Positions 4,008 to 49,868 of a stretch of DNA of 64,000 nt are shown here, piece after piece. The translations under genes were made by a program, and so were the position numbers. Numbering within the stretch: the first letter of the stretch is position 1; each line of letters begins with the position of its first letter. The stretch is from Anaerolineae bacterium. Its GTDB lineage: Bacteria > Chloroflexota > Anaerolineae > 4572-78 > J111. The notes beneath the pieces are model-generated. The model had not been told where the DNA came from. It ran no database searches and was given only the letters and a program-made list of their open reading frames with translations. Where the stretch lies: contig JAHDWA010000019.1 of assembly GCA_023382535.1 (NCBI GenBank), positions 14,541 through 78,540 on the forward strand, written 5' to 3'.

Positions 4008-4015
4008 TTGGACCA

Positions 4016-28901: not shown

Positions 28902-28952
28902 ATTTTTCGGTAGAGCGAAAAATGAAAATGATTTTTCGCTCTACGGAAAAAT
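28902..28952 (+). terminator. 22-bp near-perfect inverted repeat after the ParM-like gene
   Basis: Bases 28902-28923 and 28931-28952 pair with one mismatch around a 7-nt loop. Each arm begins ATTTTTCG. It starts 18 bp after the ParM-like stop and ends 24 bp before the next ATG. It could tune expression between parM and parR, or serve as a second binding site. Confidence 0.7.
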
Positions 28953-28976
28953 CAAACAGTCGTTGAGGTTATTTTG

Positions 28977-29243: not shown

Positions 29244-29280
29244 CCGTAGGACCGGTCCACCTCTTTCAGGAGGTTGCTTG

Positions 29281-29613: not shown

Positions 29614-29702
29614 CTGATGACTTATCTATCAACGACGATGGCGCCGCTCAACCCTCTTTCGCCCCTTGGCTCTGACGACCTTGCACGACTGGAGATTTGA
29701 CC

Positions 29703-32493: not shown

Positions 32494-32779
32494 GGCCCTG
32501 AGGATTTCAGGGTTCGATCTTTTCCCTCTTATCTATCTGTCATTTCACTTATTTGCTGTCTCACCGCGCAATTTGTAATCCCACTCTCTAGTAGTAAAGA
32601 ACTCTTCATAAGGCTAAAGCTAAGCCTGCTACACCCGTTGCTGCTTTAATCAAAATGCTTTCCAATGCGATGATACGTAGTTAAGGAGTATCGAAATAGC
32701 TAGCTTTATCGTACTGGAGCCCTCCTGCGATATACATCTTGTTCTGGACGCCGGATTTCGGCGCGACGACGGGACGCCA

Positions 32780-35707
32780 TTGAATAACCTGGAGCTGAGA
32801 GTCTTCGCGGCCGATTGGAATGGTACCACTTACGATCTGTCTGTCATCACCTCCGATCTGGAGTTTGATTTTTTTGACCCCTCCGCCTCCACCCGAAGTC
32901 ATGCAGCCGGCGCGTTGCCGCCAACCATTGACCAGAACCGCGTCAATCAGGCTATCGTCGGCCACGCTTTCAATCCTGCCACCGGTATCAGCACCTTAAC
33001 GCCGAGGGCGGTTGGGATCGTGTTTCTACAGGTCCGCTACCTCGATCCCGATCGGGCAGCCGAATATCACTACTTGATCGTCCGCATCCAAGTACACGAT
33101 GAGATGCATGGGTGGTGGTTCGGCAATAACTCGCTGTCGGTTTATCAGGATGCCGATTTTGCCCACAGCCAGGTGTCGCTGTATGCGCTGTTCGACCGGG
33201 CCGCTGCTGGCGGCGGGATTGTCGGGGATATCAGCGGTCACGGGTATGTGGCGCTTTCCTCCAACAACACCGCCAGCGTCGAACTGGATATTAACATCGC
33301 CCCCAACAATCGCTATCGTGATCGCCTCCGGGGGTTGGCTGCCGGGCAGGCGACGATTACGGGCAGGTTGCTCGGCCAGAACCGCAATCTGACCGTGCGC
33401 TGTGTGAACCTGGGCCAGGCCAATCTACCCCTTCCTGTGCTCAAGCGCGAGGCCGCCTTCTTCGATGACTCGGTCTCCCGTAGAGAGCGGTATAACATTC
33501 TTTTCCTGGCTGAAGGCTTCACCGACAGCATGGCCGATCGCCGCCGCTTCACCGAGGCAATGACGAAACTCTCCCATGATCTATTCGACTGCAAACGTCA
33601 CAGCCCGTTTAACCTGCTCAAGGACTCATTCAACGTCTGGTGGCACTATGAACCTTCCCAAGAGGTGGGCATCACCACCGCCGCGGAGCTGTCCGCCTCG
33701 ACCAGGAAAGCGATCCCCGATAAGGTGCAACCGGCCAAGGGCAGCCCAAATAACGCCTATTCATTGCTCGAGCTGATCCAACTGGTCGGGCTGCCCACTC
33801 CTCAAGATGCCGGTTTAGCCAACAACGTCCTGAGAGACCGCTGGAACGATACCGGCAACAACCCGCCCGAGACGGTTTCCAGGCTGCTGGGTTTTCGGCC
33901 AAACTTGGCGGTGAACAACGTCATCAATGCCTGGAAGCAGCTTGTGCCCACAGGGATTCCGCAGGCGCGCGATACCTTCTACGGCTTACAACATGGCTCA
34001 CGCTGGGGTGACCGCCGTTCTGAGCTTGAGTCCCGGGCCACGATGGTTGTTCCGCCAGGTGCGGCGGACCCGGACTTCAATGATAGGCACGCTGCCTTTG
34101 CCAGACGGGTGCACACATGGTACGAACCCAGGAATACCGACCCGCGGGAGATAGACCACGATCCAAGACGGGTGGCGCCGGAACTAAGCCACTCTCCGAC
34201 TGAACTGATCATCAATCACATCGTCAGGTTCGCCGACCCGGCTGTCCCTCCCGCCGACCCTAATCACCAGGTCGGGGAAGTCTGGGACAGGGATTGGGAG
34301 CCTAATGTCAACGCTCCCACCCGTGAGGTCAACAGCGCCGGCCTGGTTTGCATCATTGCCAATCACGAAGGCGCGCGGGCCACGGCTACCCGGCGAAGGT
34401 TAGTGCGGGTCAGTCTGGGGAGGCATACGCAGTACAGGTTCGCGGTAGATAACTCCAATCCTAACATCCGGCCGCTGAATATGAACCCGGATATTCGACC
34501 CGATTTGAAGAAAGGGCTCAACACCCTGGCGCACGAGTTCGGGCACAGCTTTCATCTGGGCGACGAGTACGAAGATTTCAGCAACGCAGCCGATCATACG
34601 GTCGAGCGAGCCGATAATCTGACCTACGTCCGCACCATTGAAGTTCCGGCCCCGGCCGGCAACCCCCATAACCCTGACTTTCCGACGCCGATAGATCCTG
34701 ATCTGGCGAAGTGGGCGGTGCTGCACCGGATCAAGCAGGCCGATATGCTCACGGCCGTCAGCCAGGTAGCGCCCGGCGGCCGGATCAGGGTGACATTGGC
34801 CGGCGATCGGGCGCGGCGCTGGCGAGAGGCGCGAGACGAGGGCACGACCGTGTACCTGCGCCGGGACAAGGTGAACCTGCGCAGTTACAACCTCATGCAA
34901 GTGCTCGGTGACCACTTCTGGGACTGCCGGGACTTCACCTTGCAGGACTGGGAGGTGGATGGCGCCAACTTCGGGCCGCACAATTTTAACACCTTTGCGC
35001 AGTTGGTGACCTTCATGAATAATAACGACGCCACCGCCAACTGGACCTTTGACGGCATTGAGAGCGTCAACGGAGGCGATCCTAATAGAACCTATGGCCC
35101 GTTGGTGATCGTCACCAATTGCCCGCCTGATGCCGGCCGAGAGCATGAGGTGTTTTATGCGCTGAAGAATAAACAACTCCCGGTCACCCCAGCCGATCTG
35201 TACACCTTGACCATCGAGAACATCCCTGACGACAGGACCATCGTCCTCACCGGAGCCCCGGCCAATCCAGAGCCATTCCCTCCGGGTAGTGTGCTTTACA
35301 TTCCTGAGACGGAGTTCGGCCGTCCAGCCACTCTGGTCAAGACCGGGGTGATGACCTTTATGCGCCTCTTCCAATGGGACCCCAGCATGGCTCGGGGTAG
35401 GACCCTCTCCGAAAATCACAATAAAGACGCAGCCGACCGAAGCGACGAAATCTCTAAGGAACCGGACGATCCGGCGGACGTGCCGGGGGTTAAGGCGCCA
35501 TGCTGTGCCAGGTATAAGCTGATCGGTCTTTATGAAGGCGGTGACCAGCACACCATCAGGGTTTACCGGCCCGCCGGTGCTTGCAAAATGCGCGCCTCCC
35601 AGGGATCAAAAAGTGAAGGCGAGTTTTGCTTCGTCTGTAAGTATCTGATCGTCAATCGCGTGGACCCATCCAAACACCCCAAACTCGACGGAAGTGAGTA
35701 CCCCTGA
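32780..35707 (+). CDS. M64-like zinc metallopeptidase, large, no visible signal peptide
   Basis: A protein of 975 aa or more. Residues ~1-230 are beta-rich. From about residue 238 (YNILFLAEGFTDSMADRRRF) the sequence resembles the M64 (IgA peptidase) start. The zinc site HEFGHSFHLGDE lies at residues 585-596 with a third ligand at D595 or E596. The last ~70 residues carry paired cysteines (PCCARY, GACKMR, FCFVCKY). Coordinates use the first usual start, TTG 32780. The frame stays open and protein-like back to about 32690, where AAGGAG lies 7 nt before an ATA, so translation may begin there with an odd codon. It is the first gene of the operon. No export signal is seen, so it may act inside the cell or on its operon partners. 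Confidence 0.85.
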   Translation: MNNLELRVFAADWNGTTYDLSVITSDLEFDFFDPSASTRSHAAGALPPTIDQNRVNQAIVGHAFNPATGISTLTPRAVGIVFLQVRYLDPDRAAEYHYLIVRIQVHDEMHGWWFGNNSLSVYQDADFAHSQVSLYALFDRAAAGGGIVGDISGHGYVALSSNNTASVELDINIAPNNRYRDRLRGLAAGQATITGRLLGQNRNLTVRCVNLGQANLPLPVLKREAAFFDDSVSRRERYNILFLAEGFTDSMADRRRFTEAMTKLSHDLFDCKRHSPFNLLKDSFNVWWHYEPSQEVGITTAAELSASTRKAIPDKVQPAKGSPNNAYSLLELIQLVGLPTPQDAGLANNVLRDRWNDTGNNPPETVSRLLGFRPNLAVNNVINAWKQLVPTGIPQARDTFYGLQHGSRWGDRRSELESRATMVVPPGAADPDFNDRHAAFARRVHTWYEPRNTDPREIDHDPRRVAPELSHSPTELIINHIVRFADPAVPPADPNHQVGEVWDRDWEPNVNAPTREVNSAGLVCIIANHEGARATATRRRLVRVSLGRHTQYRFAVDNSNPNIRPLNMNPDIRPDLKKGLNTLAHEFGHSFHLGDEYEDFSNAADHTVERADNLTYVRTIEVPAPAGNPHNPDFPTPIDPDLAKWAVLHRIKQADMLTAVSQVAPGGRIRVTLAGDRARRWREARDEGTTVYLRRDKVNLRSYNLMQVLGDHFWDCRDFTLQDWEVDGANFGPHNFNTFAQLVTFMNNNDATANWTFDGIESVNGGDPNRTYGPLVIVTNCPPDAGREHEVFYALKNKQLPVTPADLYTLTIENIPDDRTIVLTGAPANPEPFPPGSVLYIPETEFGRPATLVKTGVMTFMRLFQWDPSMARGRTLSENHNKDAADRSDEISKEPDDPADVPGVKAPCCARYKLIGLYEGGDQHTIRVYRPAGACKMRASQGSKSEGEFCFVCKYLIVNRVDPSKHPKLDGSEYP

Positions 35708-35709
35708 TC

Positions 35710-38700
35710 ATGGCTAATGGCGCTCGTGATACCCTCACCATCCTGGTCGAAGAAATGGCCAGGCTGTTGCTGCCCCTGCGTGAGGCGGTGGCGTCGCCGG
35801 CCAGGTTCGTTACCTTCATGGCTCGCATGGGCTGGCAGGTGAACGATATCCCACCGCCCCTGTCGAACCTGGGCAGCAGCCTCGACGACGTCTTCAACGA
35901 CTTGGAGAAGGTGCTGGACGGCGATCTCGATCCCGCCACCATTGACCGCTTGCGTACCAGCATCGTGGATGTCTTTAAGGGTATCCGGGCGATAGCCAGC
36001 GCCCCCAACGCGACCTTCCCACCCCACCTTATCGCCGACAACTTCAAGGTAGAATTCCCAATCCAACTCGTCGAGAATCTGTTTGCCGACTACCTCACCC
36101 AGAATCACTCCGGCGTCGCCTTTGCCCTGCGCGTGCTGGGCGTGATGCAGATTGACTATCAGCCGGAAACGGGCAATCGTCCGGCCTATATGCGCTATAG
36201 CTTCCACTTTGCCGATCTCCTTAAAGTGATTGATGATCCGGGGTTGATTTTCCGGAATGCCTTTGGCTGGGGAACCGATGACTTTAAGGCCGACTTTCTC
36301 TTCGATCAAATCGAAAATCTGCTGATTACGCTTGACGTCGCCGTGACTCGCGATGTCTTTGACCCCGAAACCGCCGTAAAGCTCGAAGGCGGTGTGCCGT
36401 TCCCCGGCGATCCGGAACGCGAGGTGATGACCGCCGTTTTCTTTGAACGCCAGCGGCCAGCCGGCCGGCTGGCCGCCGAACTCAGGTTCCTCGAGCTGCC
36501 GGGTGACAGCGCCACCAAGCCGGGCTTTGCGGTGCTGCCGGCATTTAACGGCATTCTCGGTTTTCGGATGCAGGTAGCTGAGGACGTCGCCTTGACCATT
36601 GGCGCCAGTTTTGATACCCAGGGCGGGGCCGGCCTGACGTTTCGACCCGGCCAGTCGCCGCAGCTCCTGTTAGGCTTTGAGGGGGATGGCGACCCTACGA
36701 CCGCCGCAGGCGAGCTTAAGGTTAAGGTGGAACTTGAGGACGAGACCAGCGAACCTGTCCCTATCCTGGGAATACGGGATGGCAGCCGGCTCGAGTTTCG
36801 CAACGCCTCGGCGATTGGCGGACTGGCTCTGGACGTCAGGAACAATCGCCAGGAGTTGTTCCTCGAAGCCGAACTGCAAGGGGGCAGGCTGGTGATTGCC
36901 CCAGGGCAGACCGATGGCTTCTTACAGACAATCCTGCCGGCGAATGGCATTCAGGCCAGCTTTGAACTGGCCGTAGGCTTCTCCAACCTGCGCGGTTTTT
37001 ATTTTCGCGGGAGCGGCGGGGTTGAAATCCAGATCCCGACTCACCTGGATCTTGGCGCCATAGAAATTACTGCGCTCACCGTCGGGCTTCAACCAAAGGA
37101 CGAAAAACTCCCGGTTAATCTGGGTGCGGACCTTAAGACCAGCCTGGGTCCACTCAAGGCCGTTGTCGAAAATATGGGCCTGGCCTTTATCGTTGCCTTT
37201 CCCGACAGCGGCGGGAATCTGGGTCCACTTGATCTCGACTTTGGTTTCAAGCCTCCTGACGGGATTGGGCTTACCATTGACGGCGGCGGCTTCACCGGCG
37301 GCGGCTACTTGCGCTATGTCGAAGCGGAACAGCGTTACGAGGGGATGCTGGAGCTGGAATACCAAAATCGGATTGCCCTCAAGGCCATCGGCCTGCTGAC
37401 CACCCGCCTGCCGGATGGCTCTTCTGGCTTCTCCCTCCTGATCATCATCACCGCCGAATTCAATCCCCCCTTCGAGTTGGGCCTGGGCTTCAAGCTCAGC
37501 ACCGTAGGTGGCCTGCTCGGTCTCAACCGCACTGCCAACGCTGAGCGGCTGCGCACCGGCCTGCGCGACAGCACCCTCAACAGTGTCCTGTTTCCCCAAA
37601 ACGTCATCGAAAACGCCAGCCGCATCCTCAGCGATCTGACCCAGGTCTTCCCGGCCCAGACCGACCGTTTCATCTTCGGCCCGATGGCCCGGATCACCTG
37701 GGGCACACCGGCCCTGCTCACCATTGACCTGGGTTTGCTGATCGAGATCCCCGATCCGGTGCGCGTGCTCATCCTGGGTGTCGTCCGGGCGCTGCTGCCC
37801 GATGAGGAAAAAAGGCTGCTCCAGCTCCAGGTCAACTTCATGGGGGTGATTGATTTCGAGGCCCAACGCTTCGCCTTTGATGCCAGCCTGTTCGACTCCA
37901 AGCTGCTCGGCTACACCCTCTCCGGCGATATGGCCGTGCGGCTGAACTGGGGGGCTGAACCCAACTTTCTGCTGACCGTGGGCGGCTTCCATCCGGCTTA
38001 CCAGCCGCCGCCCCTCAACCTGCCCAGCCTGCGGCGGCTGACCCTGCAACTGCTGGGCGACAATCCTCGCCTGACCCTGGAAACCTATTTCGCCGTCACC
38101 TCCAACACAGTTCAGTTCGGGGCTAAGGTCGAGCTGCTGGCTAAAGCTGGCTCGTTCAGCATCTATGGCTTTCTGTCCTTCGATGTCCTGTTCCAGTTCA
38201 ACCCGTTCTATTTCATCGCCTCGATCAGCGCCAAACTGGCCTTACGGGCCGGCAGCAGCGAGATCGCCAGCATCAGCCTGGACTTCACTCTGGAAGGTCC
38301 CACCCCCTGGCACGCCAAGGGCACCGCCAAGCTGAAGATTTGCTGGTTCCTGACCATCAAAGTGCGCTTTGATAAGACCTTTGGCGAAGCGCGCAATACC
38401 CGCCTGGATGACATTCTGGTCCTGCCCCTGCTCCAGGCGGCCCTGTCCGACCCAGGCAACTGGGAAGCCCACCTGCCCGATAATCGCCACCTGCTGGTCA
38501 GCTTCAAACAGACCGAGACCAGCAGTGCCCTCGTGGTCTACCCCTTCGGCATCTTGACCATCCAGCAAAAAGTGGTGCCGCTCCAGATCGAGATCCAGAA
38601 GTTTGGCAGCCAGCGGCCCGCAGATGGCAACCGCTTTGCCATCGAGCAGGTCCTGGCCGGGGCAGTGGACGATAATCCCGAAGAGCTAACCACCAACGAC

Positions 38701-39195
38701 GTGGGCGAGTTGTTCGCCCCAGCCCAGTTCTTCGAAATGTCTGATGCGCAGAAACTCTCCAGTCAGTCGTTCGAACGCTACGACAGCGGGGTCAAGCTGG
38801 TGGACTCCGAGGCGTTGGACGGGGATTACGCCGTGCGGCGGGTGGTGACGTACGAGTTGTTTTACATTGACGAGCAGCGTGCTCTGCTTCAGCAGCCTGA
38901 GCCTCACATGCCGGACCTTCTGGCCTTCGAGGGGTGGGCCTTGAGCGGAGCTATTGCCAACTCACCGCTGTCTCACGCCCGGAACGGTAGGTCGGCGCTG
39001 GCGCCGGAGGCGGTACAGGTGGACCAGGAGGCGTATGCGGTAGTGAATGCCAGCGATCTGCGGCTGGCAGAGGCAGGCACGCTGGCGGCGAGCGAGGCCG
39101 GGGCGCAGCGTCTGATGGAAGGGCTAATTCGTGGCAACCCGGCTCTGGAGGGAGAAATCCTGGTCGTGCCCATTTTTGAGGTGAACCAATCATGA
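35710..39195 (+). CDS. Giant beta-rich protein resembling DUF6603 proteins
   Basis: A 1161-aa protein. Residues ~1-190 are helical. A long run of alternating strands follows, with repeated segments of the kind LDLGAIEITALTVGL. The segment around residues 815-890 (FQFNPFYFIASISAKLALRA, then SISLDFTLEGPTPWHAKGTA) matches what I recall of DUF6603. The final ~150 residues are again helical. No signal peptide, membrane segment or catalytic motif is visible. The beta-helix-like regularity suggests a structural or scaffold role. It begins 2 bp after the peptidase stop with no clear ribosome-binding site, and its stop overlaps the next ATG, so it is translationally coupled on both sides. Confidence 0.8.
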   Translation: MANGARDTLTILVEEMARLLLPLREAVASPARFVTFMARMGWQVNDIPPPLSNLGSSLDDVFNDLEKVLDGDLDPATIDRLRTSIVDVFKGIRAIASAPNATFPPHLIADNFKVEFPIQLVENLFADYLTQNHSGVAFALRVLGVMQIDYQPETGNRPAYMRYSFHFADLLKVIDDPGLIFRNAFGWGTDDFKADFLFDQIENLLITLDVAVTRDVFDPETAVKLEGGVPFPGDPEREVMTAVFFERQRPAGRLAAELRFLELPGDSATKPGFAVLPAFNGILGFRMQVAEDVALTIGASFDTQGGAGLTFRPGQSPQLLLGFEGDGDPTTAAGELKVKVELEDETSEPVPILGIRDGSRLEFRNASAIGGLALDVRNNRQELFLEAELQGGRLVIAPGQTDGFLQTILPANGIQASFELAVGFSNLRGFYFRGSGGVEIQIPTHLDLGAIEITALTVGLQPKDEKLPVNLGADLKTSLGPLKAVVENMGLAFIVAFPDSGGNLGPLDLDFGFKPPDGIGLTIDGGGFTGGGYLRYVEAEQRYEGMLELEYQNRIALKAIGLLTTRLPDGSSGFSLLIIITAEFNPPFELGLGFKLSTVGGLLGLNRTANAERLRTGLRDSTLNSVLFPQNVIENASRILSDLTQVFPAQTDRFIFGPMARITWGTPALLTIDLGLLIEIPDPVRVLILGVVRALLPDEEKRLLQLQVNFMGVIDFEAQRFAFDASLFDSKLLGYTLSGDMAVRLNWGAEPNFLLTVGGFHPAYQPPPLNLPSLRRLTLQLLGDNPRLTLETYFAVTSNTVQFGAKVELLAKAGSFSIYGFLSFDVLFQFNPFYFIASISAKLALRAGSSEIASISLDFTLEGPTPWHAKGTAKLKICWFLTIKVRFDKTFGEARNTRLDDILVLPLLQAALSDPGNWEAHLPDNRHLLVSFKQTETSSALVVYPFGILTIQQKVVPLQIEIQKFGSQRPADGNRFAIEQVLAGAVDDNPEELTTNDVGELFAPAQFFEMSDAQKLSSQSFERYDSGVKLVDSEALDGDYAVRRVVTYELFYIDEQRALLQQPEPHMPDLLAFEGWALSGAIANSPLSHARNGRSALAPEAVQVDQEAYAVVNASDLRLAEAGTLAASEAGAQRLMEGLIRGNPALEGEILVVPIFEVNQS

Positions 39196-42100
39196 GTGAT
39201 CCAATTGCAACGTATACATTTTTGCCCTGGCTGCGGCAGGGCATTGCCTCCAAAATCAAGGGTGAGGACACTTTGGGAGCCGGCCCAGGGCCGGGTGAGC
39301 GTGCTTCCGTCCCGATTTCTTTGCAGGTGAATGGCAATCCGAATTTTGTTTCTCAGACCGTCCAACTTGTCGGTCCAGGCGATGTGATCGGCCTTAGCCC
39401 GCGGGCCATCGTTCGCACCGAGCCGCGCCACTGGGTCACGGATTTCGAGCCAAATTACCTGGCTTTCATCGAGTTCTACGACGAAGATTTCCCCTGGCGG
39501 TTTATGCCGGCGCGGGCAGTGCAGAAGGATGCAGCGGGCAACCCGGTCAGCGATCCGCAGGAGACCAAGCTGCGCCCCTGGATCTTCTTAGTGGCGTTGG
39601 AAGAGGGAGAATTCGAGCAGGTTGCTGCGCCCTCAGGGCCTCTTCCGGCAATCCGGCTGGCAGGGACGGTCACCCTGGACGCTATGCTGCCTCCCTCCGA
39701 TCAGACCTGGGCCTGGGCGCATGTGCATGTCAGTAAGGATATTACCTCGGGAAACACCAGCCCGCCGGCGCAGGCGGTGGCTGCCCTCGAAGCTCTTGTG
39801 CGCGCGAACCCGGACTATGCCCTTTCTCGCCTGATCTGCCCGCGTAAGCTCAAGCCTTCGACGGCCTATCACGCCTTCCTGATTCCTTCGTTCGAGGTGG
39901 GCCGCCTGGCAGGTTTGGGCCAGCCGACAGCCGGACTGAACGCCCTGGCCCATTCCTGGGGCGCCGGGCAGGCCGAATACCCGGTTTACTACCGCTGGTA
40001 TTTCCGCACCGGCGAGCGCGGCGATTTCGAGTATCTGGTTAATCTGTTGGAACCGCGCGAGGTGGACGAACGCGTGGGCATCCGGGATATGGATATGCAG
40101 GCTCCAAATTTTGGCGTGGTTGGGATGAGCACCGGCCCTGGAGATGAAGCGGTGATGGGCCTGGAGGGCGCCTTGAAAAGCCCCCAGGCCCAGCCCAAGC
40201 CGGCCGTCTGGCCGCCGGGCGATGAAGCAAATTATCCTCCTTTCCTGAACGAATTGGCCGAAATGGTGAACTTGTCTGAAACGCTGCTTACGCCAGCCGA
40301 CCCTGCTACCGGACACCCCGATCCCGTCATCAGCCCGCCCCTGTACGGCCGCTGGCATGCTCTCCAGGCTCGGCTGGATGTGGGCCAGCCGGGCTGGGTC
40401 AATGAGCTTAACCAGGACCCCCGGCTGCGCGTGCCGGCCGGATTCGGAACAAAGGCCATCCAGACTGGCCAGGAGATGTACATGCAAAAGGCTTGGCAGC
40501 AGCTCGGGGACATCCTGCGCGCCAATCAGAAAATACGCCAGGTGCAGCTCTCGATTGCAGCCAGCATGCGGGTCTTCTCCAGGCACTTTGCCAACCTTGA
40601 CCCCGACCAACAACTCGCCGTCACGCAGCAGGTGCATAGCCGGGTCATGGGCAGCCCTACAACCGTGTTTCAGCAGATCAGAGCGAGCCGGCTGCCGCAG
40701 GCCGCCCTCCACCCGGCGTTCCGGCGTGTCTTTCGTCCCAGGGGGGCGCTCATGCGCAAGGCCTTTCCCGGAATTCCGCCAAAACCGACCGATATCCTGG
40801 TGAAGTTGAACGCGGGGCGGGTTACCGCTGCCCTTCCGAAGGAAGCCCCGCAGAAACAGATCTCGCTCACCAAGGCTGCCGATGTCATGCAGAGCACGCG
40901 GTTACGGGAGAACGCTATGCAGGAAGAGGTTGTGCAAAGGACACCGCTTCGGCCGGCCTTCAGGTTCACCTTGCCCGGACAGATCATCCAGCCCAGCGAT
41001 CCTCTCGGCCCCCGGGGTCTCGACGACCCTGTTGAGAGTCTTGAAGGAGCCAATTACCGCACCGCTCTGCTGGACTTGCAAATCCTCAAACCCCCGCTGC
41101 CAGCGCCCACTCCCCGGCCGCAAATTGATGTCAATACGATCAGCAGCACCTTGGCCAACGCCCTCAACCCAAAGTCCGCGATCCTCCAGCGTGCCCTCAC
41201 TTTAATTCTTATCCCCTCTACCTTTGAATATCTACGCCCCACAGAGACCATCGTGCCGGTCATGGCCCACCCGGTGTTTGCTGACCCGATGTACAAGCCG
41301 CTGCGCGACCAGTCCAGCGAGCTGCTGATCCCGAACCTGAACCTTATCCCCAACAACACCATCACTTTGCTGGAAACCAACCCAAAGTTCATCGAAGCTT
41401 ACATGGTTGGCCTGAACCACGAGATGGCGCGCGAGCTGCTCTGGCGCGAATATCCCACCGATCAGCGCGGCAGCTACTTTCGCCAGTTCTGGGATGTGAG
41501 CGGGATCGTCAACCGCGAGGTGGGAAAAGACGCTAAAACGCTGGAGGAAGAGCTGCGCGATATTAAACCGCTGTACATGTGGGGACGGACTACGCTGTTA
41601 GGCTCCCATGAGAACCGAACCTTGCCGACCGGCGGCGAGCCTGGCGAGCGCCGGTTGGTCCTGGTCATCCGGGGAGATTTGTTGAAAAGATATCCTACCG
41701 CCGTCATTTTTGCCCAACAGGCAAAGTGGGTTGAGGATGAAGAGGATCCGTCGGTTCCACCGCGCAAAATTCGGGAGTTGGATGAGGGGGATCCCAAAAC
41801 GACCGTCAAGGAGCCGATCTTCAAAGCCGAGATCGAACCCGATATTCACTTCCTCGGCTTCGACCTGACCGCCTCGATGGCCAAAGGTGACCCGAAGCCC
41901 CCAGAAACAACCGGGGACCCGGGTAACCCGGGCTGGTTTTTCGTCATCCAGGAACGGCCCGGAGAACCGCGCTTCGGTCTGGACATCACCACCGACCTGC
42001 CCCCGTTCCCGCTTGAAGAATGGAACAAACTAAGCTGGAATCACTTCGGTAATCCCGATGAAATCCCCTTTATCAAGCTAAACCTGCCCGAAATACCCGC

Positions 42101-42227
42101 TGTTAGCGGCGACAGCCCGGACAAAAATATCAAGTGGGCCTCCAACGCGGCCGATATGGCCTATATTCTTTACCAGGCCCCGGTAATGGTCGCCATCCAT
42201 GCGGACAACATGTTGCCGTCAAGGTAG
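39192..42227 (+). CDS. Giant conserved protein of unknown function
   Basis: A 1011-aa protein. I recognise no named domain. Conserved-looking tracts include PRAIVRTEPRHWVTDFEPNY, then FIEFYDEDFPWRFMPA, LRPWIFLVALEEGEF in the first 150 residues, and NHEMARELLWREYPTDQRGS followed by YFRQFWD near residue 740. There is no signal peptide, transmembrane segment or nucleotide motif. The wording of these tracts, dense in aromatic residues and proline, suits a large folded structural protein. Its ATG overlaps the preceding stop (ATGA), and the next gene begins 5 bp after its stop. Confidence 0.8.
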   Translation: MSDPIATYTFLPWLRQGIASKIKGEDTLGAGPGPGERASVPISLQVNGNPNFVSQTVQLVGPGDVIGLSPRAIVRTEPRHWVTDFEPNYLAFIEFYDEDFPWRFMPARAVQKDAAGNPVSDPQETKLRPWIFLVALEEGEFEQVAAPSGPLPAIRLAGTVTLDAMLPPSDQTWAWAHVHVSKDITSGNTSPPAQAVAALEALVRANPDYALSRLICPRKLKPSTAYHAFLIPSFEVGRLAGLGQPTAGLNALAHSWGAGQAEYPVYYRWYFRTGERGDFEYLVNLLEPREVDERVGIRDMDMQAPNFGVVGMSTGPGDEAVMGLEGALKSPQAQPKPAVWPPGDEANYPPFLNELAEMVNLSETLLTPADPATGHPDPVISPPLYGRWHALQARLDVGQPGWVNELNQDPRLRVPAGFGTKAIQTGQEMYMQKAWQQLGDILRANQKIRQVQLSIAASMRVFSRHFANLDPDQQLAVTQQVHSRVMGSPTTVFQQIRASRLPQAALHPAFRRVFRPRGALMRKAFPGIPPKPTDILVKLNAGRVTAALPKEAPQKQISLTKAADVMQSTRLRENAMQEEVVQRTPLRPAFRFTLPGQIIQPSDPLGPRGLDDPVESLEGANYRTALLDLQILKPPLPAPTPRPQIDVNTISSTLANALNPKSAILQRALTLILIPSTFEYLRPTETIVPVMAHPVFADPMYKPLRDQSSELLIPNLNLIPNNTITLLETNPKFIEAYMVGLNHEMARELLWREYPTDQRGSYFRQFWDVSGIVNREVGKDAKTLEEELRDIKPLYMWGRTTLLGSHENRTLPTGGEPGERRLVLVIRGDLLKRYPTAVIFAQQAKWVEDEEDPSVPPRKIRELDEGDPKTTVKEPIFKAEIEPDIHFLGFDLTASMAKGDPKPPETTGDPGNPGWFFVIQERPGEPRFGLDITTDLPPFPLEEWNKLSWNHFGNPDEIPFIKLNLPEIPAVSGDSPDKNIKWASNAADMAYILYQAPVMVAIHADNMLPSR

Positions 42228-42232
42228 GTGGA

Positions 42233-45200
42233 ATGAAAGAACTACGTGAATACCGTCATCGGGCGCGAGCTGCCAGGGAGGAACAGGCCAGGATCGAAGA
42301 AGCTCTCGAACAGCGCCGCAACCTGCTCCACCATCGGCGGGACCAACTGGCCCGCGCCCGTCGCCTGGGGCAGGCCGGCAGCGAGGAGGCGCGGCGGCTC
42401 CAGCGCGAGATCAAGGTCCTGGAAGGCAAGATCGAAAAAGATTTCCAATCCACCAGGGGATTGAAAGTCGCTCCCACTCGCTTGAGAGAGCCGGCCCAGC
42501 CCTGGGAGCTGGTCGAGGGGCTGGATGACCGCCTGCCGTTCCTGCTGCTGCCGGTGCGGATCGAGACCCGCTTTATGACCGTCGGGGATCGGCGGGAGCT
42601 TTGGGTACGCATCTTCCCGGACGACATCGCCGTGCATACCCACGAAAAGAACTTGACGCCTAATGAGGTCAACGCCGGAAAGAGCTACTGGCAAGAATTA
42701 TGGCGCGCCCGGCAGGAGAGCGACGCAGCGAAAAGGCAGGTGATCGAAAAGGGCGCATGGCGCGCCCTGGCCGAGGCTTATGGCGGGACGCGGGCCGCCT
42801 GGATCGCTCGCCAGACCACGCCTGTAACACTTGATGTGCCTACTGTGAACAAGCTGCAATTTCCAGAATTCCCGGCGGAATCTTTAAAACCGGAAAGCTG
42901 GAGCCAGGCGCCGCGTTCAAAAGTCATGCCGGATCGCTTCGTGGTCATGGCATTTTCCGGGAGACAGGAAGTGTTTCGCCGGGCGGGCAACCCGATCCCC
43001 GACCCATTGATCGTCGGGCCTGACCCGCAAAAGGTGGAAGCCGAATTCCGGCAGGAGGATGGGGAACTGCTAGTTGGCGAAGACATTGCCTGGATTTACG
43101 ACTTCCCGCGAGCGGTAGAGGCCGGGATGGGGTTGCAGATCGAACTCGAACCTCCCTTTGACACCACCGGGTTTGACCGGCTTCTGGTCCTGGGCCTGCG
43201 CCTCTCTTCAGACGAAGAAGAAAGCCAGGCGCTGCTGGAGGAGCTGTTTGAAAACCACAGTTACTCACCCGATGGGTTGAGCCTTGTTCCCCAGGGGACG
43301 CCGACCAACAACACCAACCGCCAGGGCGCGGGCTTTTCCAGCGCCGATCCGGGGGCGGAAACCAGCTTTGCCGTCGAGACAGGCGGGCCGCTTTTTGAGC
43401 CGGTGGACATTCAATTGGAAAAACGTGATGGCCAGTGGCTGGTCGAAGCCCTGGGTATCCGTCACGAACTGTTCCAGCGCATTCAGCACGCTGGCGGGAG
43501 CGACATCCGGGAAGCTTTGCTGATGAATAAAGCCTTGTGGAACGGCACGTTGGGCTACTACCTTGAGGAGATGCTGGAGCTTGACCTGGGCAGAATCGGG
43601 CAGATCCGCAGCTTCTTCACTGACTACGTTACCGGCCGCGGACTGCTGCCGACGATCCGGGTGGGTTCCCAGCCGTATGGCATCCTGCTCACCAGCGATT
43701 TCTCCCGCTGGGCGTGGTCGCAGAATGGAGATGGAGCGCAGCTTGCCATCCTGGAAGAACTCTACGAGGCCATGGGCAGACTGGAGGAGAAGTGGCGCGA
43801 GCTTCTGCCTGGGGTGGCGCGGATCGGCGCGCCAGGCGATCCTTCTCAGAATTTGCTGAACACCTTAGGGTTACAGGCCACCTCGGCCGAGTTTTATCGC
43901 CGTCATGCGGTTGGGAAGGAGTACCTGTGGAACTACGAGGCCTTCACCTTCGACCCGTCCGGCCCCAACCCCCGCCCCGAGGGTGAAATAATGATGGCAA
44001 CCCTGCGCGATATCGCCCGTTCCTTCGCGGAGGAACTGAGGATCAACACTACTGCCCTGCCCAATATTTACAATCTGGCGTTTTTCCTGCACCAGGATCA
44101 GATCAATGATCCTCTGGTGGACGACATCCCGGCAGATGAGCGCGAAAAGTTATCAGAGGCCGAACTGCTTCGATCCCGCTACAAAGCGCCCGATCCGCTG
44201 AACCCCGACGCCAGTATCGAGACCAATTATATCGGCTGGTTGGCCTTCAGCGCTTATCCAGAGATCAAAGCCCAGCATTTTGAGAACCCGGCGGAAGAGT
44301 CGCAGCCAATGCCGCGCCCGCTGTTGTACCGCCTACTGCGCGCCTCTCTCCTGCAAGCCATTTATGATGCCACAATGAGGCTTTACACCCAATCGCAGCT
44401 TGTTCCCCTGGCAGCGCGGCGGGAAGTGGAAGTGGGCAATATTCAGGTGAGCCGGACGGTCACCCGTTGGGAATTTATGGATGCCGACATCAGCCAGGTA
44501 ATGCCCGAGGTGAGCCAGAAAAGCCAGAGTGTCGCTCAATTTTTATTCACGGCTGAGCATCCCAGCCCCTCGGGGGCCGAAGTTTTGCCGCAAGTGCTTG
44601 GGTGCATCCGGGCGTTGATTAATCTTCCCACGGCCCGGCTGGAGCGTGCCTTTGTCGAGCACCTCGACCTGTGCTCTTACCGGCTGGACGCCTGGCAGAT
44701 GGCCTGCTTCAACCGCCGGCTACAGCAGCAGCGCTTCCCCCCGGAAAGCGAGGGGACGTTTGAAAAACGAGTGCAAGGGATCTACCTGGGAGCCTTTGGC
44801 TGGGTCGAAAATCTGCGTCCCGGCCCCGAACCGGTCCTCACAGACCTGACTTCCATTCCCACCTCTCTGCATGATCCCCAGCGGGATGGTCTGTTGTTCG
44901 AGCAGCCGGACAACGCGGGGTTCATCCATGGACCTTCGCTCAATCATGCGGTCACGGCGGCCGTGCTCCGCAGTGCCTACCTGACCCATTTCGATCCGGC
45001 GCAACCGGAGAAAATGGCGGTCGGCCTTTCCTCCGAGCGAGTGCGCACCGCCTTAGCCTTTCTGGAGGGCGTCCGCAATGGCCAGGAGTTGGGCGCCCTT
45101 CTGGGCTACCAATTTGAGCGCGGCCTGCATGACCGCTACAACGATCCCTCGCTCAACCAGTACCTCCCCTTCTTTCGCCAGAGGTACCCCTTGGTGGCCG

Positions 45201-47143
45201 ACAAGATCACCCAAGATGAAACGGGCGAGCAGATTGAAACAAAGGAGGCTCGCAACGTTTTCGATGGGTACGCTCTGGTCGAGGCCGCCTTTATTCGAGA
45301 ACCGGCGCTAGCCTACCCTTATGACGTCGCTGGCTTGCCGGGAGGCAATACCGCCCACGCGGAGGCGATCAAGGCAGAAATCGCCCGCATGGCCGACAGC
45401 CTGGATGCCATCGCCGACCTGGCCCTGGCCGAGGGGGTTTATCAGGTCGCTCAGGGGAACTACGACCGCGCCGGGGCGATGCTGAAAGCTATGACCCAGG
45501 GCAACAGCCCGGCCGATCCGGAAATCGTCCGCACGCCCCGCAGCGGTGCGGCCATCACTCAGCGGGTGGCGCTGCACTTGCCAACCGGCGCGGCTCCCCG
45601 CTACTGGCGCGGCTCGCACGGCAAAAGGGCTGAGGTGGAACCGGGTCTAAATAGATGGTTAGGGAGTCTGCTCCCGCGGGCTAGCCAGATCCACTATGTC
45701 GTCCGCCTGGGCGGTAGATCGCCGGTGGAGCGAAATCTAACCGGCCTGGGTTTGCAGCCAATCGACCTGGTCTATATAATCGGCGACGACCTGGTTGGGG
45801 AAACGACGGAACTGGAAAACCGGATCGCCTTTAAGCACCGCCGTAGGCGCAAAAACGACGCCCTGGACGTACAAATCGAATTCATGGCTGAGCTGTCGGA
45901 TCCGAAAGCAGTCACCCTGTTTGAACTGCTGCCGTTGCTCCGGGCCTTGCGCTCGATCATCACAACCAGCCAGCCCCTGGGCGCGGACGATTACGAACTA
46001 CCTTCTGAAGCGACTGGCAACCCGGCCAAAGATCCCAATCCGCAGGGGGTTGTCCTGACAGAGTTGAAAACACGGGTGCAGTCGGCTTTTGCGGACTTCA
46101 GGGCTGCAGTGCGCGCTCTCGAGTCGGCCATCCCTGCCCCAGGCCCGGACGGGCAACCTAACCCCAGGCGGGCGAAGGCGGGAAAGCTGCGCTCGGCTCT
46201 CCGCGCTATTGCCGATTTTGGCGTTCCCGACGCTTTCCCGTTCAGCGCGTTCGGTTCCTCTGTTCAAGCTAGAACCACCCTGACGCGCCAGGCAGTTAAC
46301 ATTCATACTGTCGCCTCGCAAAATCTGGCCAACGCTGTTGCCTTGAAAGCTGCGGGAGACGATCCATCTTTGATCGCCCAGGAACGCATCGCCAAGTACC
46401 GCGCTGCTGTGCAGGCGATCTTTGGCCCATCATTCAACCTCATCCCACTCTTCGAGCTGAAGAATCAGGCAGAGCTGCGTGCTGCGGTGAACTTTCGCGA
46501 CGCTGACCCGGCTAAGAACCTGACCCGCCATCACCAGGAAAACCCGCTGGTTGTGGACGAATGGCTGCAAGGAGTCGCCCGGGTTCGGCCAAATCTCAGC
46601 ACCTTTGAGATGGTCTACCTCCTGGGAGAAAACTTCAGGAATCCTCGCACAGGGCAGAAGCCGCTCCAATTGCCTTTTCTTAAGACAGATTACTGGGTTG
46701 CCGTGGAATATCCGGAAGCGTTTCTGCCACAAGGAGAATTTTTATCTGTCCTTCAGGTGCTGCCGGTTTCGAGGTTCCAGCCCACTGTGTTGCAAAGTGG
46801 CTTGTTGATTGACGAGTGGGTTGAAGTCATCCCAAGCAAGTTCGAGACCACCGGGATTGCCGTCCACTTCAATCAACCTAACACCGAGCCTCCCCAGACC
46901 TTATTGTTGGCAGTTACGCCGGAGATCACGGGAGCCTGGACCTGGGATAAGCTGGTAGGCATCCTCCACAATACCTTTGACCGCGCCCAGTTGCGTGCGG
47001 TTGAACCGGATCAGCTTGGCGATACGGCGTTAGGACAGTTGCTTCCGGCGATTCTAACCCCAGTTGCCAGCCGTCCCTTCGCCACACTCGCCACAGACCT
47101 GGTATATCAGACAGCCGTCCTTTCTGCGGACGAGGGAGGATAA
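42233..47143 (+). CDS. Giant conserved protein of unknown function with N-terminal coiled coil
   Basis: A 1636-aa protein, the largest of the operon. Residues ~1-75 are a strongly charged coiled coil (REYRHRARAAREEQARIEEA and onward). Next comes LEDR-type text LDDRLPFLLLPVRIETRFM, then long mixed segments with no recognisable catalytic motif. A tract GRGLLPTIRVGSQPYGILLT near residue 465 and one GRSPVERNLTGLGLQPIDLV near 1160 look like conserved cores. ATG 42233 is chosen: AGGTGG lies directly upstream and the previous gene stops at 42227; the longer frame from 42134 would overlap that gene by 94 nt. No export signal is present. The role is unknown. Confidence 0.8.
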   Translation: MKELREYRHRARAAREEQARIEEALEQRRNLLHHRRDQLARARRLGQAGSEEARRLQREIKVLEGKIEKDFQSTRGLKVAPTRLREPAQPWELVEGLDDRLPFLLLPVRIETRFMTVGDRRELWVRIFPDDIAVHTHEKNLTPNEVNAGKSYWQELWRARQESDAAKRQVIEKGAWRALAEAYGGTRAAWIARQTTPVTLDVPTVNKLQFPEFPAESLKPESWSQAPRSKVMPDRFVVMAFSGRQEVFRRAGNPIPDPLIVGPDPQKVEAEFRQEDGELLVGEDIAWIYDFPRAVEAGMGLQIELEPPFDTTGFDRLLVLGLRLSSDEEESQALLEELFENHSYSPDGLSLVPQGTPTNNTNRQGAGFSSADPGAETSFAVETGGPLFEPVDIQLEKRDGQWLVEALGIRHELFQRIQHAGGSDIREALLMNKALWNGTLGYYLEEMLELDLGRIGQIRSFFTDYVTGRGLLPTIRVGSQPYGILLTSDFSRWAWSQNGDGAQLAILEELYEAMGRLEEKWRELLPGVARIGAPGDPSQNLLNTLGLQATSAEFYRRHAVGKEYLWNYEAFTFDPSGPNPRPEGEIMMATLRDIARSFAEELRINTTALPNIYNLAFFLHQDQINDPLVDDIPADEREKLSEAELLRSRYKAPDPLNPDASIETNYIGWLAFSAYPEIKAQHFENPAEESQPMPRPLLYRLLRASLLQAIYDATMRLYTQSQLVPLAARREVEVGNIQVSRTVTRWEFMDADISQVMPEVSQKSQSVAQFLFTAEHPSPSGAEVLPQVLGCIRALINLPTARLERAFVEHLDLCSYRLDAWQMACFNRRLQQQRFPPESEGTFEKRVQGIYLGAFGWVENLRPGPEPVLTDLTSIPTSLHDPQRDGLLFEQPDNAGFIHGPSLNHAVTAAVLRSAYLTHFDPAQPEKMAVGLSSERVRTALAFLEGVRNGQELGALLGYQFERGLHDRYNDPSLNQYLPFFRQRYPLVADKITQDETGEQIETKEARNVFDGYALVEAAFIREPALAYPYDVAGLPGGNTAHAEAIKAEIARMADSLDAIADLALAEGVYQVAQGNYDRAGAMLKAMTQGNSPADPEIVRTPRSGAAITQRVALHLPTGAAPRYWRGSHGKRAEVEPGLNRWLGSLLPRASQIHYVVRLGGRSPVERNLTGLGLQPIDLVYIIGDDLVGETTELENRIAFKHRRRRKNDALDVQIEFMAELSDPKAVTLFELLPLLRALRSIITTSQPLGADDYELPSEATGNPAKDPNPQGVVLTELKTRVQSAFADFRAAVRALESAIPAPGPDGQPNPRRAKAGKLRSALRAIADFGVPDAFPFSAFGSSVQARTTLTRQAVNIHTVASQNLANAVALKAAGDDPSLIAQERIAKYRAAVQAIFGPSFNLIPLFELKNQAELRAAVNFRDADPAKNLTRHHQENPLVVDEWLQGVARVRPNLSTFEMVYLLGENFRNPRTGQKPLQLPFLKTDYWVAVEYPEAFLPQGEFLSVLQVLPVSRFQPTVLQSGLLIDEWVEVIPSKFETTGIAVHFNQPNTEPPQTLLLAVTPEITGAWTWDKLVGILHNTFDRAQLRAVEPDQLGDTALGQLLPAILTPVASRPFATLATDLVYQTAVLSADEGG

Positions 47144-47149
47144 GTTCTT

Positions 47150-48979
47150 ATGGCGCAGGTAGAGATAAACCCTGAACTCAAAGCGATACTCCTCGCTCCA
47201 AACTTCCGCCCGGCCATCCTGACCTGGAACCGGCTGGAAGGCCGGCCACGCACCGAGGACTTTGACCGCAGCCTGCGGGCTGAGATCCGCGACCCGCTGT
47301 GGATGCTCTGCCGTCAATGGCAGTTTGGCGAATTTCAGGGCGAGGACGCGGGGTCGGCTACGGCTACGAAAGTGCAAATCGGCGCGGCGTATCTCAACCG
47401 GTACGCCGGGCGAAGTATGCAGGCCGTCGGCTACGATAATACCCTCCCCCTGGAGACCAAAGTTGAACGCGAACCAGTCCCATTGGATCTCCTGACGCGC
47501 GCCCAAATGGGACGTCATTGGTTGAAACTGCTCCGTCCGGTCGGCGACTTTAATGCCCGGTATTTGAAGGCGTTCGGCTTTCTGGACCCACAGCCTGGTC
47601 TCGAGGAGGCCCAACTGCACAGCGACCGGAAGGCCTGGCAAACTTTTGAGGCCCTCAAGGGCAGGACTGTTGACGGCGGGCGGCTGCTCCAGGCGATGCG
47701 CGCCGAACCGGACCAGCACGAAGCCTGGCTAGCCAGCGCTGTGCGAAACGCTGCGGCCCGAGCGAAGATTCTGGAAGCGGCGGAACTCTTCCAGCGCTGG
47801 TTTCAGCGGACCTACAGCCAACCAGAGCGTGGTGAAGACCCGGCCTGGGCTGATGCCTACCTGGAGTACCAGTTCGCCTGTGCTGCACCGGCCGATCCAG
47901 AAGGGGAGCGGCAGAGTGTGCTGGTCGCCGAGCAATACCACCATGGACACCTGGATTGGTATTCCTTTGATCTCGATCCTACCGTCCAGTTGCCTGATAA
48001 ACCTGGAGTGGAAATCCCCGCCGCTGTTTTCGTCGTAGAAGAACCGATGACCTTCATTCCCAACCCGGTCGAGTTCGGCGGCATGCCTAATGTCCGCTGG
48101 TGGGAATTTGAGGATCGTAAGACCGACTTCGGAAGTATTCAGCCGAGCACCACAGACCTGGCGACGCTCATTCTGGCCGAGTTCGGCTTGGTTTATGGGA
48201 ATGACTGGAGCCTGGTCCCGTACAGAATGCGGGTTGGAACCTTAGCCGAGATCCTGGGAATTGTCGTCACCGACGTATTTGGGGTGCGTACACTGGTCCG
48301 GCCAGCGGTAACCTCGATTGATGGCGAGGGAAACCATTGGGGCCTGTATTACCTGAAGGACAGGCAGGGAGAGGACATCGACCCCCGTTTATTCTTACCC
48401 CCGGTTCTCGGCAAGGTGCAGGAGAGCACCCCCTTGGAAAAAGTGATCCTGGCTCGGGATGAGATGGCTAATATGATTTGGGGGATTGAACAGGTGATCC
48501 CCAATTTGACGGGCGGGGGGATCGATGGTTATGAAGCCGCAGTGGCCCTGGAGCGTTATTTTACGCAACAGTATCCGCCGCCGGATGTGGTCCGGATTGA
48601 CACCGGGGCGGCCATCCAATACCGACTGGGTACCCATGTCTCGGAAAATTGGATCCCCTTCATTCCAGTCCACATCCCGGGATCCAATCGCGAGATCCGC
48701 CTCCAGCGTGCAGCGATGCCGCGCCTGATCTCAGAAACGCCCAGCCCGGTAGAGCCCAGGGGAATGCTTCTGCGCGCCGGACTGGATGCCACGCCGCGGC
48801 AGCCTTACTTTATCCATGAAGAAGAAGTACCACGGGCCGGTATTCTCCTGACCCGCACTTACCAGCGCGCCCGCTGGTGGGATGGCAAGATTTACACCTG
48901 GCTCGGGCGGAGAAAAGAAACTGGAAGAGGTCAAGGTTCTAGCGGCCTGGAATTTGATCAAATCGTGCCAACAGAATAA
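47150..48979 (+). CDS. Conserved protein of unknown function in the giant-gene operon
   Basis: A 609-aa protein, not recognised. A strongly conserved-looking tract, RDPLWMLCRQWQFGEFQGED, lies near residues 47-66. Later segments include GMPNVRWWEFEDRKTDFG (about 310) and RLISETPSPVEPRGMLLRAG near the C-terminus. No signal peptide, membrane helix or known active site is visible. It starts 6 bp after the previous stop and is the last of the five large genes. The Trp-rich tracts resemble those of its operon partners in style, which fits parts of one assembly. Confidence 0.8.
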   Translation: MAQVEINPELKAILLAPNFRPAILTWNRLEGRPRTEDFDRSLRAEIRDPLWMLCRQWQFGEFQGEDAGSATATKVQIGAAYLNRYAGRSMQAVGYDNTLPLETKVEREPVPLDLLTRAQMGRHWLKLLRPVGDFNARYLKAFGFLDPQPGLEEAQLHSDRKAWQTFEALKGRTVDGGRLLQAMRAEPDQHEAWLASAVRNAAARAKILEAAELFQRWFQRTYSQPERGEDPAWADAYLEYQFACAAPADPEGERQSVLVAEQYHHGHLDWYSFDLDPTVQLPDKPGVEIPAAVFVVEEPMTFIPNPVEFGGMPNVRWWEFEDRKTDFGSIQPSTTDLATLILAEFGLVYGNDWSLVPYRMRVGTLAEILGIVVTDVFGVRTLVRPAVTSIDGEGNHWGLYYLKDRQGEDIDPRLFLPPVLGKVQESTPLEKVILARDEMANMIWGIEQVIPNLTGGGIDGYEAAVALERYFTQQYPPPDVVRIDTGAAIQYRLGTHVSENWIPFIPVHIPGSNREIRLQRAAMPRLISETPSPVEPRGMLLRAGLDATPRQPYFIHEEEVPRAGILLTRTYQRARWWDGKIYTWLGRRKETGRGQGSSGLEFDQIVPTE

Positions 48980-49027
48980 AGCCTTATATTTAAGCCGAGT
49001 TGAATTTAACGCTCCGAGCTGCTGCGA

Positions 49028-49450
49028 TTGCCCAGCACAAAGAGGCAGCCGAAGCGGAACTTAACTTCTTGTTCTCCCGTCTCAATAGCCCGGCCAGCAT
49101 CCAGGCTTTTGGATGACATTCCCCACAGTGCCGAAAACGTCCATCGCTATCCCCTGTCCGTCTTGCAGGATCGCCAGGCCCATTGCCTGGATGGCGGCCT
49201 ATTTGCGGCCATGGCCCTGCGCCGGCTGGATTATCCCCCTCTAATTATTGACCTATTGCCAGAGCCAGGGATGGATGATGATCACGTCCTGGCCCTTTAT
49301 CAGCGGGATGGCTTTTGGGGCGCAGTGGCTAAATCCAACTATGTCGGCTTGCGCTTTCGGGAAGCCATCTACCGCAACCTGCGCGAGTTGGTGCTGTCCT
49401 ATTTTGAGGATTACTACAATATCAACGGGCAAAAGACGCAGGTGGACTAA
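49028..49450 (+). CDS. Small transglutaminase-like (papain-fold) protein
   Basis: A 140-aa protein. From about residue 27 it reads LLDDIPHSAENVHRYPLSVL, then QAHCLDGGLFAAMALRRLDY, DDDHVLALY, GFWGAVAKSNYVGLRFREA and a final helix FEDYYNI. The order Cys (in HCLDGG), His (in DDDHVLA) and later polar residues is that of transglutaminase-like cysteine enzymes. The first 26 residues look unconserved, so translation may start inside. It lies 48 bp after the last large gene on the same strand and ends about 90 bp before the right-hand repeat, so it belongs to the same bracketed block. It might process one of the large proteins, which is inference. Confidence 0.65.
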   Translation: MPSTKRQPKRNLTSCSPVSIARPASRLLDDIPHSAENVHRYPLSVLQDRQAHCLDGGLFAAMALRRLDYPPLIIDLLPEPGMDDDHVLALYQRDGFWGAVAKSNYVGLRFREAIYRNLRELVLSYFEDYYNINGQKTQVD

Positions 49451-49539: not shown

Positions 49540-49868
49540 GAAACCTGTTCAATAATCGCTCAATTTTCCCCCGACTGTACCTCGACAGAGTTTTGTGAGT
49601 CTTTGAGCGATTCGGACTACCGCCTGATAACCGTCCGATTTTCCCCGACATTTCACTTCGCCTGATAACCGTCCACTCTCACCATGACAACAGGCTGACA
49701 ATGGTTTCACCACAGCCCGACATCCTGCATCCCTCTTCTCAATCTCGAGCAGGTAGCTTCACCCGAGGTACAATAGCCCGATTTTCGTCTGACCGTAGGT
49801 TGATTTTTCCTTAACTGCCGCTCGACCTCCCCTCGACATTAGCCTCCCTAATTTCTGCGGCGCAAGTC
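49540..49868 (+). repeat. Right copy of diverged ~300-bp direct repeat
   Basis: Same-orientation relative of 31580-31906. Anchors are CTCGACAG, GAGCGAT, CCGATTTTCCCCGACATTT (ending 49653), CCATGACAACAG and TAATTTCTGCGGCGCAAGTC (49849-49868). The two copies bracket the giant-gene operon. The rest of 49451-49913 shows no gene. Confidence 0.65.

Follow-up and report, generated by a model that had tools for sequence, protein, structure and literature searches.

An operon with an exchangeable enzyme gene: cassette boundary inside a DUF6603 gene and a constant downstream chassis

Introduction

Two described kinds of system stand closest to the operon analysed here. In polymorphic toxin systems, according to the passages of Zhang et al. 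(2012, PMC3482391) drawn on for this work, exchangeable catalytic modules sit on a constant carrier and are moved by recombination. The vWA-MoxR/VMAP conflict systems, in the corresponding excerpts of Kaur et al. (2020, PMC7159879), comprise swappable peptidase-type effectors, effector-associated domains and an NTPase core. The operon in question lies in a stretch of 64,000 nucleotides from an Anaerolineae bacterium (contig JAHDWA010000019.1, positions 14,541 to 78,540), hereafter the window. It starts with the gene of an M64-like metallopeptidase (P1), followed by a gene of the DUF6603 family (P2) and by three further large genes (P3, P4 and P5).

As judged from sequence comparison, the enzyme gene and the 5′ half of the DUF6603 gene (about 500 codons) are swapped as one cassette between chassis. 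On the same comparisons, the N-terminal half of the DUF6603 protein (N-half) predicts the class of the enzyme encoded upstream.

A cassette boundary inside the DUF6603 gene

Related loci, designated by L numbers, were collected by a species-genome scan with an alignment of P3; 139 were confirmed and the set used is the best 80 of these 139. The genes of the window are as follows (aa, amino acids; bp, base pairs).

32690..35707, + strand: payload gene P1; 975 aa from TTG 32780; M64-like metallopeptidase with HEFGH; homologous frame to about 32690
35710-39195, + strand: DUF6603 gene P2, whole; 1161 aa
35710..37245, + strand: P2 N-half, about residues 1-512; belongs to the exchangeable cassette, tracks enzyme class
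37246..39195, + strand: P2 C-half, about residues 513-1161; belongs to the constant chassis; large antiparallel beta sheet predicted
39192..42227, + strand: chassis gene P3; 1011 aa; overlaps P2 by 4 bp; order conserved
42233..47143, + strand: chassis gene P4; 1636 aa; likely N-terminal coiled coil; adjoins P3 in relatives
47150..48979, + strand: chassis gene P5; 609 aa; present in 58/59 testable loci
49028-49450, + strand: P6; 140 aa; outside the conserved module

The loci of a member of the Methylococcales (L067) and of Nitrosomonas ureae (L075) encode P3, P4 and P5 proteins which are 90, 89 and 89% identical, and first enzymes which are unrelated: trypsin-like in L067, a tyrosinase in L075. 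Compared in blocks of 60 residues, their DUF6603 proteins show 15-31% identity up to residue 480 and 90-100% from residue 541 (window numbering). At the DNA level, a single block of 13,044 bp with 86.4% identity extends from inside the DUF6603 gene to 59 bp past P5; upstream of this block nothing matches except 377 bp that precede the enzyme genes. The trypsin-like locus L074 compares in the same manner with the subtilase loci L070 and L007: the flanks preceding the enzyme are similar, the chassis block begins inside the DUF6603 gene and nothing matches between. Pairs which share their enzyme match on through it, as seen for L066/L069 (trypsin-like) and L007/L070 (subtilase). For the window itself, the DNA begins to resemble L002 at 37246 and L001 at 37245, two loci with a PLD-like first enzyme; both points lie around P2 residue 513. 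DNA identity to these loci is 68-72%, and at this level the lack of any match further upstream carries less weight. In the protein comparison of the window with L001, the P2 C-half is 75% and the N-half 22% identical.

In an initial pair comparison, same-enzyme pairs were closer on average; the comparison was rerun in matched bins of chassis identity. Between the bins 0.3-0.4 and 0.8-0.9, mean N-half identity stays flat at 0.22-0.29 for pairs with different enzymes, whereas it climbs from 0.30 to 0.88 for pairs with the same enzyme. The C-half means of the two kinds of pair are at most 0.05 apart in matched bins. Since the N-half is flat in one case and rising in the other, it is not merely fast-evolving. 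Different-enzyme pairs with close chassis number 10, 2 and 1 at identities of 0.6-0.7, 0.7-0.8 and 0.8-0.9, and they come from few loci and are non-independent.

Phylogenies are consistent with this picture. Quick LG+G4 trees were built from 63 N-halves, 63 C-halves and 60 P3 proteins and labelled with ten enzyme classes, which mix Pfam matches, homology clusters and motifs (the fragment in L063 is classed by homology). The N-half tree needs 11 changes of class (least possible 9), the C-half tree 30 and the P3 tree 27. Shuffled labels gave means of 37.9, 37.7 and 35.8, with lowest values in 200 shuffles each of 32, 32 and 31. With chassis near-copies excluded and one-member classes not counted, the nearest N-half belongs to the same enzyme class in 55/59 cases and the nearest C-half in 22/59. 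Three loci from outside the set, L121 and L124 (both S8) and the archaeal L111 (PhoD), were placed in their own class by the N-half in 3/3 cases; the C-half did so only for L121.

The variable enzyme position

A co-directional gene upstream of DUF6603 was found in 65 cases (64 loci and the window). It overlaps the DUF6603 gene or is no more than about 100 bp away from it, except in L022 (279 bp) and L070 (207 bp). A joint Pfam scan covered 56 of the 65 proteins, the window being scanned separately and the eight others, mostly near-copies, being excluded; it returned S8 subtilase in 11, M64 in 8, NAL1_N in 5, galactose-oxidase-like in 3, PLD and PhoD in 2 each, and tyrosinase and M14 in 1 each, with overlapping trypsin and kelch matches. 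Once homology clusters are added to Pfam, 52/65 can be assigned: 20 trypsin-like (with weak Pfam matches in some members), 12 S8, 11 M64, 3 galactose oxidase-like, 2 PLD, 2 PhoD, 1 M14 and 1 tyrosinase. The PLD-like enzyme of L001 scores 43.9 bits against a cut-off of 27.

These results bear on the first-pass annotation, which had pictured the operon of five giant proteins and a small one as a large, perhaps structural, assembly with two maturation proteases, P1 and a transglutaminase-like P6. The first gene occupies what is an interchangeable enzyme position in related loci, where oxidases, a phosphatase or PLD are found in some instances. No phmmer match to P6 was obtained among the predicted open reading frames (at least 80 aa) of the 80 related loci, which places P6 outside the system. 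The maturation idea does not fit, because some loci carry non-protease enzymes at this position and P6 is absent.

A C-terminal domain of about 130 residues is found in 20/20 trypsin-like and 7/12 subtilase enzymes, stands alone beside the enzyme in L016, L021 and L039, and was undetected in the other enzyme types. The model of this domain was built from 12 loci in which the domain was then found. Searched against 21 whole genomes that contain the core, it matched 11 times, in 8 of them, and by coordinates every match falls within a core locus; since 7 of the 11 are rows of the search alignment, what this adds is that outside the core loci no copy was detected in the 21 genomes.

Two separate observations follow. 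In L123 (reverse complement, 764-7375), a DUF6603 protein of 2203 aa has a long N-terminal extension resembling beta repeats and no separate enzyme. A four-repeat hemopexin protein is encoded at L075:1413-2654, close to the tyrosinase-type operon of Nitrosomonas ureae.

The chassis: annotation, order and distribution

In the window, the six open reading frames are co-directional and separated by 2, -4, 5, 6 and 48 bp; recomputed coordinates agree with the sizes and gaps claimed earlier. The identification of P1 as M64-like was borne out by Pfam (E 2.1e-9, 37.4 bits against a cut-off of 26) together with the HExxH motif, present as HEFGH. NCBIfam gave for P1 a single short M6-protease stretch around this motif (E 3.3e-4, 20.6 bits; cut-off 110.8). 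The P1 frame is open and similar to its L011 homologue up to about 32690, an extension which contains no ATG; the true start of the gene is probably upstream of TTG 32780. The assignment of P2 to DUF6603 (PF20248) likewise stands, with E 1.9e-134 and 449.4 bits against a curated cut-off of 27 over residues 445-1013; a Plectin match on P2 is below threshold (0.052). The three other large proteins were said to match no nameable family, and in fact Pfam gave no match for P3-P6, NCBIfam none for P2, P3, P4 and P6 and a single chance-level one for P5 (0.047), and PHROGs only chance-level matches (E 0.2), to P1 and P5, among P1-P6. None of the three collections detected sheath, tube, baseplate or AAA+ ATPase families in P1-P6. 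The C-half of P2 is predicted to form a large antiparallel beta sheet, an N-terminal coiled coil is likely in P4, where the matches are weak, and the structure model of P5 has a predicted local distance difference test score (pLDDT) of 82.1 and a predicted template-modelling score (pTM) of 0.75.

The order of the chassis genes is strongly kept. Among testable loci, i.e. P3-seeded loci with sufficient flanking sequence, DUF6603 is immediately upstream of P3 in 67/72 and about 2.3 kb upstream, not adjoining, in L020, L024 and L027. P4 lies downstream of P3 and adjoins it in 59/59, P5 is present in 58/59, and DUF6603, P3, P4 and P5 are all present in this order in 51/57. Searches from the other genes give a related view. 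Seeding with P5 produced six matches in 296 genomes, one being the seed; the other five all show P2-P3-P4-P5 in order, and one of them (L122) is apparently the contig of L045, leaving four new loci. Seeding with DUF6603 gave 16 matches; the 14 regions inspected represent 12 of these and two second copies, the remainder being the two seeds (G001 and G002), the match in G017 and a fragment of 4.4 kb in G076. Nine of the 14 show P3, plus P4 and P5 where the region reaches (L100 is apparently the contig of L063). In L106:11141-17494, a single open frame encodes both P4 and P5 and so constitutes a natural fusion of the two.

Homologues at E 1e-3 or better number at least 4002 for P3 (among 7995 candidates scored), at least 692 for P4 (among 7989) and at least 3203 for P5 (among 7998). 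Going by their record titles, the loci among the best 80 of 139 span 12 named bacterial phyla, many being bins of metagenome-assembled genomes: Bacteroidota 34, Pseudomonadota 17, Chloroflexota 9, Actinomycetota 7, eight more phyla with 1-2 each and one locus unassigned. The same gene order is found on two haloarchaeal plasmids, and in one of them the edge of the stretch truncates the DUF6603 gene; out of 13 plasmid records that match P4, 3 were inspected. The proposal of an undescribed conserved operon is thereby upheld, the chassis order being kept across these phyla and in haloarchaea. Homologues co-occur rather than being scattered singly, and no phage-tail or injection-system match emerged, which favours that proposal.

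Presence across genomes is patchy. DUF6603 occurs in 7/101 genomes of one family and 9/296 of one phylum, seed genome included, and in 0/14 controls; P5 occurs in 6/296 and 4/251 genomes, seed included, two of those four being short partial matches. For phylum labels, the P3 tree implies 19 changes against a possible minimum of 10, a scatter which is suggestive of transfer rather than proof of it. Separately, an unverified and unannotated ‘Bacteriophage sp.’ contig from faeces (L114, MT835531.1) holds a partial P4 match.

Flanking open reading frames which form families in at least three loci comprise the upstream enzymes (33, 12, 7, 4 and 4 loci), generic regulators, kinases and dehydrogenases (5-6 loci) and genes common to close relatives. 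No immunity-like neighbour family recurs across distant loci, in a survey which would miss cassette-specific immunity genes. These data bear on the idea that the operon is a variant of polymorphic toxins and leaves the cell through a known secretion system encoded elsewhere in the genome. The hallmark of such toxins, in the consulted portion of Zhang et al. (PMC3482391), is that recombination swaps their catalytic modules while the carrier stays constant. However, the enzyme is a separate 5′ gene and not a C-terminal domain, P2-P5 show no known trafficking domain in Pfam, NCBIfam or PHROGs, and the neighbour survey showed no immunity-like family across distant loci; we consider this explanation very improbable.

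Location of the proteins and proposed function

It is very likely that the enzyme and the constant chassis form one module, and cognate docking through the DUF6603 N-half is likely. The reading which we prefer, with a probability of about 0.5, is that of an enzyme-carrier complex which would dock one enzyme through the DUF6603 N-half and deploy it, probably outside the cell. The DUF6603 C-half, P3, P4 and P5 would assemble into a constant physical complex. A single enzyme, encoded first and devoid of a recognisable signal peptide, would dock onto the N-half; the chassis would then take it out of the cell, surface-bound or released, where its targets would be external material or other organisms. 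The large beta sheet of DUF6603 might contact membrane or lipid, which is the weakest step. Taken by itself, extracellular deployment is an evenly balanced proposition. A broader version, in which bacteria and haloarchaea would share a new class of delivery machine, a four-protein carrier unrelated to known secretion or injection apparatus, that takes up one of at least eight interchangeable enzyme families by way of the DUF6603 N-half and brings it onto or across envelopes, is offered tentatively and is rather doubtful.

Evidence on location comes from hydropathy and composition. No stretch of 19 residues with a mean hydropathy of at least 1.9 occurs in P1-P6 of the window (a crude scan, not SignalP). 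The earlier statement that signal peptides and membrane segments are lacking therefore holds for the window by this measure, but it does not extend to relatives at large: such stretches occur somewhere in 41/67 P2, 48/74 P3, 2/68 P4 and 0/60 P5 proteins, which makes the absence of membrane segments unsafe for P2 and P3 in general. Among upstream proteins, hydrophobic stretches away from the N-terminus are present in L001, L002, L008, L062 and L076, near the C-terminus in L008 and L062. Cysteine makes up 0.09-0.33% of chassis proteins versus 1.06% in flanking genes, and surface-type domains are found on archaeal P4 and P5 and on Streptomyces P3. There is thus some evidence, from composition and domain content, for an outward location, and the cytoplasmic assembly proposed at first is unproven.

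Large cysteine-poor proteins could also build a cytoplasmic nanocompartment or scaffold which sequesters or stabilises one enzyme, following an encapsulin-like logic. The lack of signal-like N-termini, the single enzyme per locus and a module exchanged with its cargo would suit such a structure. Nevertheless, sequence searches of Pfam, PHROGs and PDB matched none of P2-P5 to a shell protein, and surface-type domains are added in archaea, so that we regard a compartment as improbable.

Another candidate is intracellular defence or a programmed response, in which P2-P5 would sense and then switch on the enzyme as an effector. Signal-like N-termini are absent from all 65 enzymes; many of these are proteases, effector types which also occur in the conflict systems treated in the excerpts of Kaur et al. 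(PMC7159879), and the C-terminal domain common to different enzymes and standing alone recalls the effector-associated domains of the same excerpts. Against this, PADLOC gave no match at E 0.01 for P1-P5 (one subtilase tested matches generic subtilase and IetS models). The P-loop motif is rare in the P2-P5 families (2/67, 4/74, 11/68 and 2/60), from which it follows that the chassis holds no conserved NTPase. Copper-type oxidases would, we reason, be odd as suicide effectors, and the surface-type domains of archaeal P4 and P5 do not suit an intracellular role. Defence is in our judgement unlikely.

Returning to the enzyme carrier, several observations weigh against it or against the exchange rule on which it draws. 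The N-terminal hydrophobic stretch (at least 1.9) was found in 0/65 upstream enzymes, which thus show no secretion signal in the crude scan, and their cysteine content is ordinary (1.07%), unlike that of the chassis. In two same-class pairs, L007/L077 and L070/L077 (all S8), N-half identity is as low as 26%, and the C-half and P3 trees are mildly clustered by enzyme class too (30 and 27 changes versus shuffled minima of 32 and 31). No enzyme family was recognised by Pfam or homology in 13/65 upstream proteins (11 with a motif lead, L060 with a motif, and L035), and the C-terminal domain of about 130 residues was undetected in the enzyme of the window. L123 and L125 are without a separate upstream enzyme. 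An opposite-strand open reading frame is called directly upstream of DUF6603 in L020, L028, L029 and L042; those in L020 and L042 overlap DUF6603 and may be spurious. As to the chassis, L023 has no DUF6603 in its fetched stretch, L048 has none either and carries an M64-like gene downstream of P5, and 5 of the 14 DUF6603-seeded regions have no recognisable P3-P5, belonging to a second operon type.

Relatives of such enzymes are usually secreted, and a carrier, if true, would account for those which lack a signal. Thousands of unannotated giant proteins (the at least 4002 P3, 692 P4 and 3203 P5 homologues) would then be parts of a single modular machine that follows a readable rule, in which the DUF6603 N-half predicts its enzyme, and that could serve as a natural platform for carrying enzymes. 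The system is in any case far more general than is visible in the window, which holds a single representative of a modular system with a patchy distribution in bacteria and haloarchaea.

Surroundings of the operon in the window

Plasmid-like neighbours had been noted, and proteins of this kind are indeed encoded in a row at 26021-30821: FtsK/SpoIIIE-like, actin-like (ALP_N/MreB-like) and DnaA_N-containing products, i.e. plasmid-like segregation and replication genes. Of the bracketing repeats, one direct pair does flank the operon (31639-31771 and 49592-49723), but it is degenerate, with 70% identity over 133 bp. Downstream, at 53566-58245, a protein of 1559 aa carries nine DUF11 stretches and is probably a surface protein.

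Comparison with described systems

The match of P2 to the DUF6603 family (E 1.9e-134, residues 445-1013) supplies a name without a function, and P2 consists of two modules whose boundary is straddled by the Pfam match. Neither DUF6603 nor PF20248 is named in any of the 5.39 million papers searched, a scope which leaves subscription papers and preprints outside.

A second type of DUF6603 operon is seen in L097, L101, L103, L108 and L110, with DUF6603 proteins of about 1,000 to 3,200 aa. As in the operon studied here, DUF6603 is followed by a remote relative of P3 (hhalign 93%, E 3.1e-7; L097, L101, L108 and L110). Of the upstream proteins scanned (L097, L101 and L110), that of L110 is a Lipase_3 protein (1.4e-15), that of L101 is weakly metallo-beta-lactamase-like (0.0047, below cut-off) and that of L097 has no Pfam match. 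Unlike the present operon, this type has no recognisable P4 or P5 and has large partners of its own. Because it also places an enzyme-like gene upstream, the enzyme-first rule may predate the chassis studied here.

The vWA-MoxR/VMAP systems, as set out in the excerpts of Kaur et al. (PMC7159879), share with our loci swappable peptidase-type effectors and an adaptor-like domain which occurs both fused and alone. They differ in that the operon has no conserved P-loop and no PADLOC match for P1-P5, and the chassis is without a detected adaptor-like domain.

With polymorphic toxins, within what the cited passages of Zhang et al. (PMC3482391) cover, the operon shares a catalytic module swapped by recombination on a constant carrier. 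Here, however, a whole separate 5′ enzyme gene moves together with half of the next gene, there is no C-terminal toxin domain, no immunity family was found, and P2-P5 match no known carrier in Pfam, NCBIfam or PHROGs. The operon is undescribed as a system, and its exchange logic resembles that of polymorphic toxins.

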